Below are positions 14,917-38,869 of a DNA stretch of 64,000 bases, piece by piece. Source of the DNA: Spirochaeta thermophila DSM 6578 (lineage in GTDB: Bacteria; Spirochaetota; Spirochaetia; Winmispirales; Winmispiraceae); the NCBI RefSeq assembly GCF_000184345.1, contig NC_017583.1, positions 2,232,001 to 2,296,000 of the forward strand, written 5' to 3'. The notes under the pieces were generated by a model that was given only the letters and a program-made list of their open reading frames with translations, did no database searches and had not been told where the DNA came from. Within the stretch, counting starts at the first letter, position 1; each line of letters opens with the position of its first letter. Both the position numbers and the translations under genes were made by a program.

Positions 14917-16236
14917 CTAGACCAGCGCACGCCCGGGTTCCTCCAGGTACTTCGCGAGGTCGGCCATGAAGGCAGCCCCCAGTGCGCCGTCTATGGTCCT
15001 GTGATCGCAGGAGAGGGTGAGCCGCACGATGCGCGCCGGCACCACGCCTCCTCCCTCCCACACCGGTTCGGTAGTCACCGCCCCCACGGCGAGTATGGCC
15101 GAAGCGGGCGGATTGATGATGGCCGTGAACTCCGTGATGCCATAAGACCCCAGGTTGCTGATGGTGAACCCCGCCCCGCTGTACTCCTCAGGGGCCAGCT
15201 TCGCTTCACGGGCCCTGGCGATGAGGTCCTTGAGCTCGTGATCGATCTCCTCCACGGTCTTGTACTCACAGGAACGCACCACGGGGGTGATGAGGCCGCC
15301 GGGGAGCGCCACGGCGAGCCCAATGTCCACCGAATCGAAGTAGCGGATGGCCTCGCCCTCCCATGAGGAGAGGATCTGCGGATGCCGCACGAGGGCCTCG
15401 GCAGCGAGCTTCATGAGGAAGGCATTGAAGGAGAGCCGCTCCTCCCGGCTTTCGTTCACCTGCTCCCGCAGGGCAACGAGCCTGTCGGCGCGGACCTTCA
15501 CCGTGAGGGTGAAGTGGGGAGCGGTGCGCTTCGACTCGGAGAGCCGCCGTGCGATGGCCGCCCGCATGGGCGTCACGGGCTCCAGCCCGCCTGCAACCCG
15601 CCGCGGCCCACCGGATGCTGCCAGGGGAGCGGCGTGTCCGGCCTTCGCGGCCTCCTCCACGTCCTGCACCGTCACCCTGCCACCCGGCCCGGAGCCACGC
15701 ACCACCCGCAGGTCCACACCAAGTTCCTTCGCCCGCTTCCGCGCAAGTGGGCTCGCCTTCACCCTTCCGGGAGGAAGTGGCAGCTCCACCGTACCTCCCG
15801 TCTCCACCGGTTCACGGACATCTCTCCTCTCTCCTGTCTTCACACGCACCGCCTTCTTCTCAGCTCCCAGTGGAGAAGCAGCGCTTTCCACCTCAACCCG
15901 GGGTTCCTCTCGCTCTCGTGCCCCCCCTCCCTTTTCTACAGCCTTTGTCTCTCCTGTATCACTCGAAATCTCGGCGAGGATCGAGGAGACGTCCTCCCCC
16001 TCCTCCCCGAGAACCGCGATCACCTCACCCACCCGTGCCTTCTCCCCCTCCTTCTTGAGGATCTCGAGGAGCACGCCGCTCTGGGTGGATTCGTAGTCCA
16101 TCGTGGCCTTGTCGGTCTCCACCTCACAGAGGACATCCCCGCTCTCGACCCTGTCACCCTTGTTCTTGTGCCAGGCGACGATCGTTCCTTCCTCCATGGT
16201 GGGGGAGAGGGCTATCATGAGCACCTTTTCCGCCAT
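14917..16236 (-). CDS. pdhC: dihydrolipoyllysine acyltransferase, E2 of pyruvate dehydrogenase
   Basis: 439 residues. A single lipoyl domain (Lys43 in VETDKATMDYES is the attachment site), a Pro/Ala/Glu-rich linker, a peripheral-subunit-binding domain (~165-200, ASPLARKRAKELGV and GPGGRVTVQDV) and a catalytic domain ending in the active-site DHRTIDGA (His412). It transfers the acetyl group from lipoyl to CoA in the pyruvate dehydrogenase complex. It follows E1beta by 3 bases. The E3 gene is not in this window. Confidence 0.95.
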   Translation of the reverse strand: MAEKVLMIALSPTMEEGTIVAWHKNKGDRVESGDVLCEVETDKATMDYESTQSGVLLEILKKEGEKARVGEVIAVLGEEGEDVSSILAEISSDTGETKAVEKGGGAREREEPRVEVESAASPLGAEKKAVRVKTGERRDVREPVETGGTVELPLPPGRVKASPLARKRAKELGVDLRVVRGSGPGGRVTVQDVEEAAKAGHAAPLAASGGPRRVAGGLEPVTPMRAAIARRLSESKRTAPHFTLTVKVRADRLVALREQVNESREERLSFNAFLMKLAAEALVRHPQILSSWEGEAIRYFDSVDIGLAVALPGGLITPVVRSCEYKTVEEIDHELKDLIARAREAKLAPEEYSGAGFTISNLGSYGITEFTAIINPPASAILAVGAVTTEPVWEGGGVVPARIVRLTLSCDHRTIDGALGAAFMADLAKYLEEPGRALV

Positions 16237-16239
16237 AGT

Positions 16240-17220
16240 CTACTCCAGATAGAGCACCCTGGAGACTGCCGCCACCACCTTCTCCACGGAAGGCTGCACT
16301 GCGAGCTCCAGCGTGTGGTTGTAGGGCATGGGAACGTCCTCGGACGTCACGATCTCCACCTGGGCGTCCAGGTCGTCGAAGCAGGCCCTGCCGACGGCCC
16401 AGGCCACGAACGAAGCAGGCCCGCACATGGGCCAGGCCTCGTCCACCACCACGGCCCGGTGGGTCTTGCGCACCGAGGCGAAGATCGTCTCGGTGTCGAG
16501 GGGTCTGAGCGATCTGAGGTCCACCACCTCCACATCCACCCCCCGCTCCTCGAGTACCTTCGCCGCCTCCATCACGACCTTGAGCGGCTTGGAGTAGGTG
16601 ATCACCGACACATCCTTCCCCGGTCGTTTGATATCGGCCTTCCCGATGGGGACGACGTACTCCTCCTCGGGCACCTCTCCCTGCCAGGCGTACATGAGCT
16701 CCGCCTCGAGCATCACCACCGGGTCGTCATCCCTGATGGCCGACTTGAGGAGCCCCTTCGCATCGTAGGGCGTGGCGGGTGCCACCACCTTGAGACCGGG
16801 CACATGCATCCAGAAGGCGGCGAGCGACTGGGAGTGCTGCGACGAGAGGTACTCCGCAGGTCCGTTGGGGCCCCTGAAGACGATCGGCACCTTGAGCTGG
16901 CCGCCCGACATGTGACGCATCTTGGCCGCATTGTTGATCACCTGGTCCATGGCCAGGATGGCGAAGTTGTGGGTCATCCACTCCACCACCGGCCTGAGCC
17001 CTGCGATCGCCGCCCCTATCCCGATACCGGTGAATCCGAGCTCGGAGATGGGGGTGTCGATCACACGCTTCGGACCGTACTTGGCGAGCAGCCCTCTGCT
17101 CACCTTGTAGGCCCCGTCGTACTCCCCCACCTCCTCACCCATGAGGAACACTCGTTCGTCCCTCGCCATCTCCTCGTCGAGGGCCTGGTTGAGCGCTTCC
17201 CTATAAGTCATGACCGCCAT
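16240..17220 (-). CDS. pdhB: pyruvate dehydrogenase E1 component, beta subunit
   Basis: 326 residues of the transketolase-like pyrimidine-binding plus C-terminal domain type (VFLMGEEVGEYDGAYKVSRGL, DTPISELGFTGIGIGAA, VVDLRSLRPLDTETI). Pairs with PdhA to decarboxylate pyruvate with thiamine diphosphate and acylate E2 lipoyl groups. Its start overlaps the end of pdhA by 13 bases, indicating translational coupling. Confidence 0.95.
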   Translation of the reverse strand: MAVMTYREALNQALDEEMARDERVFLMGEEVGEYDGAYKVSRGLLAKYGPKRVIDTPISELGFTGIGIGAAIAGLRPVVEWMTHNFAILAMDQVINNAAKMRHMSGGQLKVPIVFRGPNGPAEYLSSQHSQSLAAFWMHVPGLKVVAPATPYDAKGLLKSAIRDDDPVVMLEAELMYAWQGEVPEEEYVVPIGKADIKRPGKDVSVITYSKPLKVVMEAAKVLEERGVDVEVVDLRSLRPLDTETIFASVRKTHRAVVVDEAWPMCGPASFVAWAVGRACFDDLDAQVEIVTSEDVPMPYNHTLELAVQPSVEKVVAAVSRVLYLE

Positions 17221-18230
17221 GTGGCATCCTCCCCTGCATACACATCTTCGTATATGGTGTGAAGTGCAGGCTCTTCACTTCGCTCGGCAAACTCCACAGC
17301 CTCATCCACTTCCTTTTGAATCTCCTCATAGAGGGCCCTGAACGTCTTCTCTTCGAGAAGCCCCTCCTCCTCCATGAAAGTCTTGAGCCTCCCTATGGGA
17401 TCCTGGCGCTTGTACTCCTCGAGCTCCTCCCTCGTACGGTATTTTGCAGGGTCGCTCATGGAATGCCCCTTGTAACGGTAGGTGCGGGCCTCGATGAGCA
17501 CCGGGTCTCCCTCCCTCGCGCGGGAGACCGCCTCAGTGGTGGCCTCGTAGACCGCCCGCACGTCCATCCCGTCCACCTGCACACCGGGGATGTCGTAGGC
17601 CGCCCCGAGCTTGTAGAGATCGGCCACAGCCGAGACCTTCTTCCAGAAGGTCCCCATCCCCCACTGGTTGTTCTCACAGATATAGACCACCGGGAGCTCC
17701 CAGATCTTGGCCAGGTTGAGTGCCTCGTGGAAGGCCCCCTGGTGGATGGCGCCGTCTCCGAAATACACGAGCGTCACTCCTCCGGTCCCCTCGTACTTCT
17801 GGGCGAACGCCACCCCGGTCCCCACCGGGATCTGGGCACCCACGATCCCGTTACCCCCGAGGAAGTGCTTCTCCACGTCGAACATGTGCATGGATCCGCC
17901 TTTCCCCCTACTGCACCCCGTCACCTTCCCGAAGAGCTCGGCCATCACCACCTTCGGATCCATGCCGCAGGCGAGAGCATGGCCGTGATCTCGGTAGGCC
18001 GTGACCACGTAGTCCTTCGCAAGATCGATCGCGGCGATGGAGCCCACGGCCACCGCCTCCTGCCCGATGTAGAGGTGGCAGAACCCCCCGATCTTCCTGA
18101 GCCCGTACATCTGGGCCGACTTCTCCTCGAAGACGCGGATGAGGAGCATCTCCCTCAGGAACTTCATGTAGAGGTCCCGGCGCTGCTTTTCCTTCCCTCC
18201 CTTCTGTGTACCCGGGCGTTTCACTCCCAT
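17208..18230 (-). CDS. pdhA: pyruvate dehydrogenase E1 component, alpha subunit
   Basis: 340 residues with the thiamine-diphosphate motif running from GDGAIHQGAFHEALNLA to ENNQWGMGT, and the conserved phosphorylation-loop-like YRYKGHSMSDPAKYR. The substrate is most likely pyruvate from its similarity to PDH E1alpha proteins. The start ATG overlaps the preceding PNPOx-like gene by 10 bases. Confidence 0.95.
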   Translation of the reverse strand: MGVKRPGTQKGGKEKQRRDLYMKFLREMLLIRVFEEKSAQMYGLRKIGGFCHLYIGQEAVAVGSIAAIDLAKDYVVTAYRDHGHALACGMDPKVVMAELFGKVTGCSRGKGGSMHMFDVEKHFLGGNGIVGAQIPVGTGVAFAQKYEGTGGVTLVYFGDGAIHQGAFHEALNLAKIWELPVVYICENNQWGMGTFWKKVSAVADLYKLGAAYDIPGVQVDGMDVRAVYEATTEAVSRAREGDPVLIEARTYRYKGHSMSDPAKYRTREELEEYKRQDPIGRLKTFMEEEGLLEEKTFRALYEEIQKEVDEAVEFAERSEEPALHTIYEDVYAGEDATWRS

Positions 18231-31478: not shown

Positions 31479-31507
31479 CAAAAAGGCCGCCGACTCTGCG
31501 GCGGCCT
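31479..31507 (-). terminator. rho-independent terminator of the E1-lipoyl-KASIII gene
   Basis: Stem AGGCCGCCG (31484-31492), 6-nt loop, CGGCGGCCT (31499-31507), followed by TTTTTG on the - strand. With the promoter at 34964-34992 it makes the fusion gene a likely single-gene unit. Confidence 0.88.
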
Positions 31508-31547: not shown

Positions 31548-34500
31548 TCACAGGGTCTTCACTACTCCCCCTGCAAAGGTGAACCCTGCACCAAATGCCG
31601 TAAGTCCCAGCACCATCCCCGGCCCGGCTGTGGGGAAGATCTCCTCGAAACAGAGGGGAATGGTGGTCGCCGAGGTGTTCCCCAGCCGGGCGATGTTGGA
31701 GAACACCTTCTCCTCGGGGAGCCCCATGCGCTTCCGCACCGCATCGATGATGCGCTGGTTCGCCTGGTGGGGAACCATGAGATCCATGTCCTCCACCGTG
31801 AAACCCGCCTCTTCGAGGGCCCTGCGAAGGATGTGGATGAGCGCCTTCACCGCGCGCTGGTAGACCGCAGGACCGTCCATGAAGATGGGCTCCTGGTAGG
31901 GGATCCTGAGGATGGACCCATCCTCACCCTCTGCCGAGAGCACAGGCCGGTAGAGGAGGGCCTTGCCCCGTACTCCGGCCTCGGGTCCTGCCACGAGCGT
32001 GGCGCTCGCACCATCGGCAAAGACCGGCGCGGTGGAAGGATCAGAGGTGTCGAGCCTCCTGGAGAGCACATCGGCCGTCACCACCAGCACGGTCTCCTTC
32101 GGCCGTGAAGAGAGGTAGTCGTAGGCGATCTGGAGGGCATAGAGGTACCCGGAGCAGGCCGCATTGATATCATATGCAGGACAGGTGATCCCGCCCTTCC
32201 CCTCGCTGAGCCGGTTCTGGAGCAGGGTGGCAAGTGCAGGGCTGTTGTAGGGAGGGGTGGTGGTGGCACAGATGATGGCCCCCACATCCTCTATCCGGGC
32301 GCCGGTCTTCTCGAAGAGTCTCTGCACCGCATCCACGGAGAGCGAGAGGATATCCTCATCGTCGGAGCCCCACCGGCGCTCCTGGATACCGGTTCGCCGG
32401 ACGATGTCTTCAGGCGTCCATGTGGGGCACATGCGGGAGATCTCCTCATTGGTCACCACCCGGGAGCCCGGCCTTCCTGCCACGTCCACGATCACAGGCA
32501 GGGCACCCTCTCCGCCGTCCCGTACCGTTGCCCTCTCCTCGCGAGGTGCCTCTACGGTGAGGCGGGCCTTCTTCTTCGCCCCGCCGAGCCCCTCGATGAG
32601 TGGTGTACCGGGTTCCTCCTGGGTCAGGGGCTTCTCCTTACGGGCGGCTCCCTCCGGCAATCGGATCTTTGCGATGGCGCTCCCCACAGGGGCCGACTCA
32701 CCTTCCTGTACGAGCAGCTCCTCCACCACTCCATCGACCGAGGCCCGAATCTCCACCGCCGCCTTGTCGGCCTCGGCCTCGGCCACGATCTCGCCGGCCT
32801 TGATGGCATCGCCTTCCTTCACCTTCCACTCGAGGATGGTGATCCGCTCGTCAGAGGGGCTCGACCCCACTGCCTCCAGGAAGTAGTAGCCGGCCTCGGC
32901 CCTGGGCTTCTCCTGCCATCGGATGCTCCCCCCAAGCATCTCCACCGCCGTGGTGAGCACCCGCTTGTACGAGGGGAGCACCTCGAGCTGACACGGGAAG
33001 TTGCACGGCACATAGGTGTCGGCCCGTGTCACCCGCACCACCTCCACAGGCACCCCTGCCTCCTCTGCCGCGGTGGCCACGATCTCCGCCCCCATGCCCG
33101 CGGTGTGCGTGTCCTCATGCACCACGATGAGCCTGCCGGTCTTCTTCACAGAGGCGAGGACCGTCTCCTTGTCCCACGGCACGATGCTCCGGAGGTCGAT
33201 CACCTCTGTCTCCACACCATACTGCGAGAGGGTCTCGGCGGCCTTGAGACAGTGGAGGATGTTGTTCCCCCAGGTGACCATGGTGAGGTCTTCGCCGCGC
33301 CTGAGGACCTTTGCCCTGCCTATGGGAACGAGGTGCTGGCGCACATCGCGGGTGGCGGCAAACTGCCTGTTGTTGAGCATGCTCTTGGGGTAGAAGAAGA
33401 GGGTAGGCCTTCCGGAGGCAAAGGCGGCGTTCAGGAGCCCTGCCGCATCGTCGGCCGAGCTCGGCATGAACACGTCTACCCCCGGGATGTGTGCCGCAAT
33501 CCCCTCCATGGTGCTCGCGTGGAATGGCCCGAGCCCCGGCTTGTACCCCCCACACGAGATCATCACGATCACCGGACACTCCCACCCGCCGTTCGTCCGC
33601 CACCACATGCTCCCCAGCTCGCTGATCATCTGGTTGAAGGCAATGGGGAGAAAGTCGGCGAACTGGAGGAAGGCCACAGGTCGTTTTCCTGCGAGGGCCA
33701 TGCCTATGGAGATGCCCAGAATGCTCGACTCGGCGAGGGGCGAGTTCTGGACACGACCCGGAAACTTCCGGGTGAGCCCCCTCGTCACCCCGAAGACATC
33801 GCCCTTGGGATCCTCTATGTCCTCTCCGAAGAGGAAAACCCCGGGATTCTCTGCGAGGTGTTTCTCCAGTACCCGGTTGATGGCATCGCGCATCACGAGC
33901 ACCTCTTCTTCCGAGAGGGGAGGTGCCTTGTCTTCGATCGAAGGGTCCTCCAGCTCTGGAGGGAGGGGTTTCTTCGCGGTGAAGATGGGCTCCGGGTCGG
34001 ACACGAGCTGACACCGGGCGGCGAGCTCCTCCAGTTCCTTGCGCCACTCCTGCTCCCTGGAGGCAAGCTCCTCTTCTGCGATCCCGTTCTCTATGAGCAC
34101 CTGCCTGAGCTTCTTGATGGGGTCTGCAACCTCCCGCACCCGCTTTCGCTCTTCTTCGGGACGGTACACCGACTCATCGTCCGCATTGGTGTGGTTGCAC
34201 AGCCGCTCCACATCGAAGACCACGATGCGCGGCTTTCTGTCCTCCCGCATCCCTGCCACCACATCCTTGAGGGTGCGGTAGGCGGTCACCGCATCGGTAC
34301 CGTCCACATACGTGATGGGGATGCCGTAGAACGAGTCCACCCTGCCTTCGGGAAGCTCGTAGAAGGTCTTCCCTCTGGTCCTGGTGGAGATGGCGTACTT
34401 GTTGTCCTCGATGAAGAAGAGCACGGGGAGGCCATCCCTCACCGCGTGGGCGATGGCCTCGAGCACCTCACCCTGCTGGATCATGCCGTCGCCCAGGGAG

Positions 34501-34931
34501 CAGAGCACCACCGGAGCCCCCTCGGTATCCCGTACGGCCTTGGCCACACCCACCGCCTGGAGGGCGGAGTTTCCCACCGGCCCCACGATGGAGAGGATCT
34601 TGAGGTGTGGGGCGCTGATGTGCGCGCTCATCTGCCTGCCTGCGGAGTGAGACTCCCTGTTGGTGAAGAGCGAATGGAAGAACTGGGCCGAATCGAGCCC
34701 TCGCGCGAGCATGAGGGCCTTGTCGCGGTAGTGACAGTGGAGCCAGTCGTGCGCTGTGAAGAGCGGGGCAAGCACTGCCGCAGCCTCATGACCTGCGCCC
34801 GAGACGGTGAAGAAGGCCTCACCCCGTTTGGTGTAGTCCTCCTCTATGCGATCGATCTCCCTTGCGGAGAACATGTGCTTGTAGAGGTCAAGAAAGAGCT
34901 TCGTTTCCTGATCCTGAAGCTGGTGTCCCAT
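31548..34931 (-). CDS. fusion: 2-oxoacid dehydrogenase E1alpha-E1beta-lipoyl-KASIII
   Basis: 1127 residues in one open frame with four modules. E1alpha (~1-330) has the thiamine-diphosphate motif GDG (147-149) to DNKYAIS (from 176). E1beta (~340-670) includes FLFGEDIEDPKGDVFG, ESSILGISIGMA and VIDLRSIVPWDKE. A lipoyl domain (~684-760) has Lys723 in EADKAAVE. After a charged linker, a FabH-type 3-oxoacyl-ACP synthase III (~815-1127) keeps the complete triad Cys926 (AACSG), His1055 (PHQAN) and Asn1085 (GNTSA). There is no E2 acyltransferase domain. The ATG at 34931 follows GGGGG; an upstream TTG is unlikely. By family knowledge E1 would acylate the lipoyl arm from a 2-oxo acid; handing the acyl group to KASIII, directly or through CoA, to start (branched) fatty acids is my inference. 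A separate conventional PDH lies at 14917-18230. Confidence 0.93.
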   Translation of the reverse strand: MGHQLQDQETKLFLDLYKHMFSAREIDRIEEDYTKRGEAFFTVSGAGHEAAAVLAPLFTAHDWLHCHYRDKALMLARGLDSAQFFHSLFTNRESHSAGRQMSAHISAPHLKILSIVGPVGNSALQAVGVAKAVRDTEGAPVVLCSLGDGMIQQGEVLEAIAHAVRDGLPVLFFIEDNKYAISTRTRGKTFYELPEGRVDSFYGIPITYVDGTDAVTAYRTLKDVVAGMREDRKPRIVVFDVERLCNHTNADDESVYRPEEERKRVREVADPIKKLRQVLIENGIAEEELASREQEWRKELEELAARCQLVSDPEPIFTAKKPLPPELEDPSIEDKAPPLSEEEVLVMRDAINRVLEKHLAENPGVFLFGEDIEDPKGDVFGVTRGLTRKFPGRVQNSPLAESSILGISIGMALAGKRPVAFLQFADFLPIAFNQMISELGSMWWRTNGGWECPVIVMISCGGYKPGLGPFHASTMEGIAAHIPGVDVFMPSSADDAAGLLNAAFASGRPTLFFYPKSMLNNRQFAATRDVRQHLVPIGRAKVLRRGEDLTMVTWGNNILHCLKAAETLSQYGVETEVIDLRSIVPWDKETVLASVKKTGRLIVVHEDTHTAGMGAEIVATAAEEAGVPVEVVRVTRADTYVPCNFPCQLEVLPSYKRVLTTAVEMLGGSIRWQEKPRAEAGYYFLEAVGSSPSDERITILEWKVKEGDAIKAGEIVAEAEADKAAVEIRASVDGVVEELLVQEGESAPVGSAIAKIRLPEGAARKEKPLTQEEPGTPLIEGLGGAKKKARLTVEAPREERATVRDGGEGALPVIVDVAGRPGSRVVTNEEISRMCPTWTPEDIVRRTGIQERRWGSDDEDILSLSVDAVQRLFEKTGARIEDVGAIICATTTPPYNSPALATLLQNRLSEGKGGITCPAYDINAACSGYLYALQIAYDYLSSRPKETVLVVTADVLSRRLDTSDPSTAPVFADGASATLVAGPEAGVRGKALLYRPVLSAEGEDGSILRIPYQEPIFMDGPAVYQRAVKALIHILRRALEEAGFTVEDMDLMVPHQANQRIIDAVRKRMGLPEEKVFSNIARLGNTSATTIPLCFEEIFPTAGPGMVLGLTAFGAGFTFAGGVVKTL

Positions 34932-34963: not shown

Positions 34964-34992
34964 ATGGTACCCCTCCCTTCCAAGGGTGTCAA
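34964..34992 (-). promoter_or_regulatory. promoter of the E1-lipoyl-KASIII fusion gene
   Basis: TTGACA (34987-34992), 17-nt spacer, TACCAT (34964-34969) on the - strand, about 33 bases before the ATG. Confidence 0.7.
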
Positions 34993-37526: not shown

Positions 37527-38869
37527 GGCACTGTCAAGGGGGAGTGTTGAAATTGAGCTGGAGTTGATAAGGGGTGCATCTCCCCACCTCTTGTATCACC
37601 TGCATGCCCACCACGTAGAGGCCTACCACCTCATCTGCATGGGCACGGCTCATATACCCAGGATACCTCCGCAGAAAGCTCCTCATGTGACGAAACATGT
37701 TCTCCGCAAGGTTGCTCGTCCTCACCTTCTCCTTCCACTCATAGGGTAACTCCAGATAGGAGAAGAGCCGCTCCTTCCGCCACAGGAGAGCAGCCGTCAT
37801 CCGGGGGGCCTTCGTCGCCCACTTCTTCACGAATGCCTCGAACGCTTCCTCTGCCTCCTCCTTCCCTCCTGCCTCAAAGAGCCTCCAGTACTCAGTCCGA
37901 AAGGCTCGCCTCTCCTCCTGGAGGTGAGCCTTCTTCCCCTTCTGGTCCCCCATATCCTGCAGAAGCTTCTGCTCAAGGGTGCATTGCAGGTGCCAGAGGC
38001 ATACCTGCTTCTTCGCCTCAGGATACACGGTCTCCACCGCCTGCCAGATCCCCTCTGCCTCATCGGCCACCACCAGCTCCACCTCCTCAAGCCCTCGCTC
38101 ATAGAGTTTGGTAAGGAGTCGCTCGTAGCTCGCCCGGTCCTCCTGCTCCGCAACCACCCAGTCGAGGAGCTCATGAGACCCGTCCTCCTTCACTCCCACG
38201 GCACTCAGGATCACCAGCCCCCTCCTCCCTTTTCCCCTCAGCTTTCCCCACACCCCATCCAGCACGAGCGCCTTCACCCCTCTAATGGGCCGCCTCCGCC
38301 ACCGCTCTTTCTCCTCGCGAAGACGCTTTATGAGCCTAAGGAGTGTCTGCGGGTGAGCCTCTCCTATCCCCAGCTCCCGTAACAGAATGGCCCACGTCCG
38401 CGCGCTCATCCCTCTCACATACCCAAGGAGGAGCTGCTCAGCGAGGGCCACGAGCCTCTGCTCGTAGGTCACCAGCTTTACCTCCTTCCCCCCGCCGGTG
38501 CGAATACGGGCACGCGTACCTCCTCGATCGGCCCCCAGGGGGTCTGCACGCTCTTCCACTTTCTGTAGCCGTACCGGTAGTACGGTGCCTTCTCAGCCTC
38601 CCCTCGTGCATATCGTGGTCGTCCCACTGCCTCCTCTCTCAGCGTCTCAAGGAGGTGCTCCAGGTACGTCTTGTAGGTGTGGCGCACCTCCTCCCGGAGT
38701 TGGGCCTCCACTTGCTTCATCAGATCAGAGAGGGTATACTGTGTATCAATCAGTGTGCGTGTGTTACCACGCTTCATGGGGTATCTCCTCCTTCTTTCAG
38801 AGGTTTGGTGGTGGGAGATACCCCTTATCTTTTTTCCCCGCCTTTTTCAACACTCGATGTTACAGTCCC
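37527..38869 (-). mobile_element. IS256-family insertion sequence, copy 2 (1343 bp, inactivated)
   Basis: Nearly identical to copy 1 over its whole length, with the same terminal inverted repeats. The differences I can see are one G to A change and one missing G near 38509, and one T to C change near 38823. It is inserted in a lipoprotein gene with a perfect 8-bp duplication. The near-identity points to recent movement. Confidence 0.95.
37534..38777 (-). pseudogene. frameshifted IS256-family transposase
   Basis: Same gene as the copy 1 transposase, but a one-base deletion at about 38506-38511 shifts the frame after codon ~90. The N-terminal piece (38478-38777) stops after 99 residues; the remaining ~320 residues, including the whole DDE triad, lie in another frame with no proper start. 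Copy 1 is intact at the same place, so this is mutation rather than programmed frameshifting. Confidence 0.93.

Follow-up and report, generated by a model that had tools for sequence, protein, structure and literature searches.

Analysis of a 64,000-nucleotide stretch of the genome of Spirochaeta thermophila DSM 6578 (assembly GCF_000184345.1, contig NC_017583.1, positions 2,232,001 to 2,296,000; hereafter the window, to which all positions refer) revealed a gene that joins, on one polypeptide of 1127 amino acids, the E1alpha and E1beta parts of a 2-oxo acid dehydrogenase, a lipoyl domain and a FabH-like 3-oxoacyl-acyl carrier protein synthase III (KASIII). In this arrangement, the first enzyme of fatty-acid synthesis apparently takes the position normally filled by the acyltransferase of a 2-oxo acid dehydrogenase. 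We lean slightly towards a mechanism in which the acyl group of the lipoyl arm would be passed directly to Cys926 of the KASIII and condensed with malonyl-acyl carrier protein (malonyl-ACP), giving branched primers with no free acyl-coenzyme A (acyl-CoA). There is about an even chance that these proteins represent a new class of 2-oxo acid dehydrogenases, with a ketosynthase instead of E2 and CoA-free initiation of branched fatty acids, whose spread over three phyla reflects descent or an early exchange.

Domain organization and conservation

A sequence-only reading of this DNA had reported a single frame of 1127 codons. The frame was indeed found to be one uninterrupted gene (31548..34931), running from an ATG at 34931 to 31548 on the minus strand, an orientation missing from that reading; all features of the gene given below lie on this strand. 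Domains were identified with Pfam and those listed scored above the curated cut-offs. The E1alpha domain (E1_dh, residues 17-306, 34014..34883) contained, according to alignments, the thiamine diphosphate (ThDP) motif GDG147-149..N177, a pocket of the branched-chain type (F41/Y68/M101/H104) and the motif HTNADD at residues 247-252. It was followed by the E1beta pyrimidine-binding domain (Transket_pyr, residues 346-520, 33372..33896), which carries Glu401, by the E1beta C-terminal domain (Transketolase_C, residues 538-646, 32994..33320) and by a lipoyl domain (Biotin_lipoyl, residues 699-756, 32664..32837), in which the motif EADK723A holds the expected lipoylation site Lys723 (32763..32765). 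The KASIII domain covered residues 815-1127 (31551..32489) and was recognized with Pfam (ACP_syn_III at 920-982 and ACP_syn_III_C at 1039-1125), NCBIfam, HMMER and Foldseek. The ThDP motifs were present, and Lys723 and the catalytic residues Cys926, His1055 and Asn1085 were all located where they had been reported. The reported lack of an E2 acyltransferase was likewise confirmed, as no Pfam match to the E2 core (2-oxoacid_dh, PF00198) was obtained on the chain, and neither was one to the peripheral subunit-binding domain (E3_binding).

The same domain order was confirmed with Pfam in eight diverse members of the family. Conservation was counted on an alignment of 50 fusion proteins, in which the lipoyl lysine, the KASIII Cys, His and Asn, Asn177 of E1alpha and Glu401 of E1beta were invariant; Asp148 of the ThDP motif was Asp in 46 sequences, Glu in three and a gap in one. 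The linker between the lipoyl and KASIII domains comprised at least 50 residues in the aligned fusions (median 54), a length that would provide reach for a swinging arm. Two open frames (L218:274-4809 and L251:1755-5891) continued beyond the E1 domain on its upstream side for 320-400 codons; these extensions had no Pfam domain and probably result from an over-long start choice.

The KASIII domain and its CoA clamp

The fused KASIII was about 33% identical to E. coli FabH. It scored above the threshold of the NCBIfam family NF006829 (259.7 versus 249 bits) and below that of TIGR00747, fabH (232.8 versus 292.1). E. coli FabH (1HN9) served as the reference onto which residues were mapped with HMMER. 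The nucleophile Cys926 (Cys112 in E. coli; 32154..32156), His1055 (His244; 31767..31769) and Asn1085 (Asn274; 31677..31679) were each conserved in 50 of 50 fusions. The description of this domain as a complete FabH was appropriate as regards family and catalytic triad, but it did not hold for the clamp that binds the CoA adenine. In FabH, Trp32 and Arg151 sandwich this adenine, and Thr28 is close by (PMC4606726). The S. thermophila protein has Asp842 (32406..32408) and Pro965 (32037..32039) at these two stacking positions. Trp32 was found in none of the 50 fusions (Asp 24, Ala 16, Glu 6, Gly 2, Lys 2) versus 22 of 25 stand-alone KASIII proteins, nearly all of the latter taken from fusion-carrying genomes, and Arg151 in none (Pro 14, Phe 12, Gln 11, Tyr 5, others) versus 24 of 25. 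As a control, 68 columns well conserved among stand-alone FabHs were examined and 15 of them were kept by fewer than 10% of the fusions. Among these 15, most of the columns other than 32 and 151 had become gaps or were fixed for one or two different residues, whereas positions 32 and 151 had become variable, as expected for a released constraint.

Asn247 and Arg249 (Arg1060 in the S. thermophila protein) were retained in all 50 fusions, and Arg249 of E. coli FabH is an ACP-docking residue. We take this to mean that malonyl-ACP may still insert its pantetheine into the active site while CoA would no longer be specifically held. At the position of Phe87, which belongs to the primer pocket, the fusions had Ser or Thr in 50 of 50 cases (Ser897 here, 32241..32243). 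A bulky Phe87 accompanies preference for acetyl-CoA, and a small Thr87 larger primers (PMC3734052); the substitution thus supports a roomy primer pocket in the fused enzyme. A separate FabH is present in the host, and at least one stand-alone KASIII was found in every fusion genome checked, so that the fusion would be dispensable for ordinary acetyl-CoA priming and free to specialise.

Substrate type of the E1 part

All E1alpha matches in the PDB at E <1e-20 were to human branched-chain enzymes or to the branched-chain enzyme of Thermus. The residues Phe66, Tyr95, Met128 and Asp278 of the latter line the substrate pocket in the Thermus and human structures, and nearly all fusions had Phe, Tyr, Met and Asp at the corresponding positions, with Met (Met101 here) in 47 of 49 and Asp (Asp252 here) in 50 of 50. 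In the pyruvate dehydrogenase (PDH) E1alpha of the same genome (window 17208-18230), Met128 and Asp278 correspond to Gly and Pro. These comparisons support an E1 of the branched-chain type. The position of Thermus His131 varied among fusions (Phe, His or Met, with Phe in half of them), and the substrate range may differ among lineages for this reason. The earlier proposal of a dedicated machine for branched primers agrees with both the E1 type and the roomy KASIII pocket, the function itself being a prediction from these residues.

Distribution and origin

Whole-genome protein searches were performed on samples of 385-393 genomes per phylum, which are not censuses. They yielded 12 full-length fusions and one truncated by a contig end among 393 Spirochaetota, five fusions among 392 Planctomycetota, and 34 full-length and two partial fusions among 388 Verrucomicrobiota, that is, a patchy spread over about 3%, 1% and 9% of the sampled genomes, respectively. 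Five full-length fusions in Planctomycetota and Verrucomicrobiota had already been obtained when six exact peptide patterns were matched against 84,980 species genomes. At E 1e-130, no fusion was detected in 385 Gemmatimonadota or 386 Bacteroidota genomes, and the four Bacteroidota matches were E1alpha-E1beta chains with an ordinary lipoyl-E2 gene behind them. The search for this architecture and its taxonomic range that had been suggested thus disclosed fusions in three phyla.

The same frame occurred with 90% identity in another genome of the genus and with 75% identity in another genus of the family. Since both relatives are full-length, no stop or frameshift is hidden between the lipoyl and KASIII parts, an event that had been named as a possible flaw; together with more distant full-length homologues (44-57% identity), they rule out a frameshift or assembly artefact. 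The active sites are retained at about 45-55% identity across the three phyla. One relative (genome G200, L126:8823-12315) had a fusion broken by two frameshifts into three overlapping frames. As the breaks fall within the E1alpha and the lipoyl domains, a functional split was rejected, and the sequence indicates a frameshifted pseudogene or a sequencing error. Six further KASIII matches were found in that genome.

In the KASIII tree, the 50 fusion domains formed one clade with respect to 26 stand-alone KASIIIs (SH-aLRT 99), the exact position of the root being unsure owing to one long stand-alone branch that joins near the split. The fusions also formed one clade (100) in the E1beta tree, and their sister group (98% SH-aLRT) consisted of single-chain E1alpha-E1beta-lipoyl-E2 proteins. 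From these topologies, both halves of the fusion share one origin. The sister family was found at locus L128 (1647-4838) in Spirochaetota, at L172-L177 in Planctomycetota and at L247-L254 in Verrucomicrobiota. Its chains of about 1020-1175 amino acids amount to a whole dehydrogenase minus E3, and the E2 domain (PF00198) at their end was confirmed with Pfam in all three phyla. To our knowledge, such single-chain proteins have not been described. Because the order of domains is the same in this E2-ended family, the sequences place the KASIII in the E2 slot. More distant E1beta relatives belonged to ordinary operons of E1alpha, E1beta and lipoyl-E2 genes. The simplest history would be the fusion of an operon, after which E2 was swapped for a KASIII, or a KASIII was joined while E2 was lost.

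A distant family of E1alpha-E1beta fusions of about 820 amino acids, with a lipoyl-E2 gene nearby, was also observed in Lentisphaerota and Spirochaetota (L042, L044, L045, L047, L049, L071, L073, L074, L076, L080, L082, L091 and L093). Locus L004 of the host genome (C1:1513825-1517508) may hold a fusion of this type beside its E2.

Proposed mechanism and alternative explanations

In the proposed mechanism, the fused E1alpha/beta would decarboxylate a 2-oxo acid on ThDP, with release of CO2, the most likely substrates being the branched 2-oxo acids derived from valine, leucine and isoleucine. E1 would reductively acylate its own lipoyl-Lys723, and the lipoyl arm would hand the S-acyl group to Cys926 of the KASIII domain, a domain that stands where an E2 acyltransferase is otherwise found. 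Reaction of the acyl-cysteine with malonyl-ACP would give a 3-oxoacyl-ACP, the starter of an iso or anteiso fatty acid, without passing through free acyl-CoA, and the dihydrolipoyl arm would be re-oxidised by the housekeeping lipoamide dehydrogenase (E3); one E3 over the cut-off (TIGR01350) and a lipoate-ligase-like gene are present in the host genome. We infer the lipoylation, the substrate, the direct transfer and the product from sequence comparison. E1 elsewhere is an alpha2beta2 assembly and KASIII a dimer, both with two-fold symmetry, and by analogy a symmetric homodimer is plausible for the fusion.

Several observations weigh against this mechanism. Divergence of the fused KASIII is by itself substantial (the 15 of 68 columns mentioned above), and the loss of Trp32 and Arg151 is no proof that use of CoA was lost. 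A Trp occupies the aligned Thr28 position in 35 of 50 fusions, including this protein (Trp838), and might stack on the adenine in the stead of Trp32; as such a replacement may have occurred, Arg151 is the cleaner sign. Three stand-alone planctomycete KASIIIs (L154, L164 and L165) lack Trp32, have Trp at position 28 and keep Arg151, and possibly represent an intermediate arrangement of the clamp. The host genome contains two full E2 genes elsewhere, and its lipoate-ligase-like gene scores below the family cut-off. No conserved functional or fatty-acid neighbours were found in 39 regions around fusion genes, where synteny was shared among close relatives only; this lack is expected, however, for a chain that requires nothing beyond E3, ACP and lipoylation as general partners. 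Finally, AlphaFold2 models were of low confidence and unreliable geometry, both for the full chain (6 sequences; pLDDT 61.7) and for the KASIII alone (pLDDT 65.9). Despite these weak models, FabH and branched-chain or pyruvate dehydrogenase E1 held the top Foldseek ranks.

The sequence-only reading had offered two options, a direct transfer from lipoyl to cysteine and a channelling of acyl-CoA. Direct transfer is favoured here because the residues of the adenine clamp are gone and the KASIII holds the E2 place of the sister family. In the channelling option, a separate E2 would convert the acyl group delivered by E1 and lipoyl into acyl-CoA, to be used by the nearby fused KASIII. The two E2 genes and the E3 of the host would permit this, and known branched-chain synthesis in Gram-positives runs through acyl-CoA with separate Bkd and FabH (PMC10026030). 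We nevertheless regard it as unlikely: the clamp is missing in all 50 fusions, no E2 gene adjoins the fusion in any lineage, the chain is devoid of a subunit-binding domain, and an E2 stands exactly at the place of the KASIII in the sister family. A distinctly unlikely variant is that the KASIII acts as an acyltransferase of the NapE/DinQ type, moving the lipoyl-bound acyl group through Cys926 to a carrier protein (as acyl-ACP) or to another acceptor. KASIII relatives have been proposed as acyl loaders beside transketolase-like systems (PMC7570522), but the Cys-His-Asn triad required for decarboxylation of malonyl-ACP is retained in 50 of 50 sequences.

The chemistry could also be as proposed without supplying branched membrane fatty acids: the product may be destined for a secondary metabolite or a special lipid, or the starting compound may be pyruvate or a different 2-oxo acid. 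Both the patchy distribution and the variation at the His131 position, which hints at more than one substrate, would fit; this was judged improbable in view of the branched-chain type of the E1alpha residues and of the absence of a biosynthetic cluster from all 39 neighbourhoods read. That the halves work independently, as a mere gene fusion or an artefact, is very improbable. Operon fusions do occur and E1alpha-E1beta fusions are common, but the single origin, the occurrence in three phyla, the intact residues and architecture of 50 sequences and the divergence of the KASIII from stand-alone FabH all contradict it, as does the completeness of the host genome (a single contig of 2,560,222 bases). 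Some coupling between the two halves is considered far more probable than the modestly preferred direct transfer.

Flanking signals and neighbouring genes

The gene had been predicted to possess its own promoter and terminator, and corresponding sites were found on both sides of it at the sequence level. They consist of a sigma-70-like site (TTGACA-17-TACCAT, 34964..34992, minus strand), a match to the consensus only, with one site of this type found versus 0.4 expected from shuffles, and of an intrinsic-terminator-like stem and T run (31484..31507, minus strand); the wider 81-nt terminator region folded no better than shuffles. A ribosome-binding-like stretch (GGGGGA) lies directly upstream of the ATG. 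The promoter-like site and terminator-like stem would fit a single-gene transcript. A transposase of the Mutator family (PF00872; 341 amino acids, window 37534-38559, minus strand) was observed upstream of the fusion, at a distance of about 2.6 kb. An ordinary PDH operon (window 14917-18230, minus strand) lies about 13 kb away and comprises E1alpha (17208-18230), E1beta (16240-17220) and lipoyl-E2 (14917-16236).

Comparison with known systems

Each domain of the fusion is of a known kind, but the combination, its spread and the placement of a KASIII in the E2 position appear new. In agreement with the sequence-only reading, which knew of no description of a KASIII-ended architecture, the open-access literature provided no description of an E1alpha-E1beta-lipoyl-KASIII protein or of transfer from lipoyl to a ketosynthase; an account of the lipids of S. 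thermophila was not found there either. Bacterial fatty-acid primers enter by textbook routes via acyl-CoA (or acyl-ACP), and we know of no other case of a lipoyl arm acting as donor to a ketosynthase. Direct transfer, if true, would give the arm this role, and a CoA-free route would constitute a new class of reaction coupling. It would also explain how branched chains could arise independently of the ordinary FabH in some Spirochaetota, Planctomycetota and Verrucomicrobiota, and provide a compact building block for the engineering of branched lipids and fuels.

With FabH, the fusion has in common the family match, the Cys-His-Asn triad and Arg249, and it differs by the absent Trp32/Arg151 clamp, the small residue 87, the location behind a lipoyl domain and a score below the TIGR00747 cut-off. 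With Bkd/BCKDH (Thermus 1UM9 and human BCKDH), it shares the E1 family, the ThDP motifs, the pocket residues and the lipoyl DKA motif; unlike them, it is a single chain without E2 core or subunit-binding domain and with a KASIII attached. The sister E1alpha-E1beta-lipoyl-E2 proteins are its closest E1beta relatives and display the same order of E1alpha, E1beta and lipoyl domains, their last domain being a 2-oxoacid_dh acyltransferase instead of a KASIII. Initiation by Bkd and FabH in Staphylococcus and Bacillus achieves the conversion predicted here, from a 2-oxo acid to a branched 3-oxoacyl-ACP, but with separate proteins and via free acyl-CoA (PMC10026030). The actinobacterial two-in-one 2-oxoglutarate dehydrogenase OdhA/KGD also unites E1 and an acyl-accepting enzyme on one chain; its acceptor is E2-like, its E1 is of the homodimeric 2-oxoglutarate type and no ketosynthase is present (PMC10415282). 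The C2 loading system NapB/NapD/NapE of naphthyridinomycin and dnacin resembles the fusion in that a ThDP-dependent (transketolase-like) system operates together with a KASIII-like enzyme and a carrier protein, whereas its components are separate proteins of antibiotic clusters, its C2 unit derives from a ketose and its KASIII is proposed to be a loader (PMC7570522).

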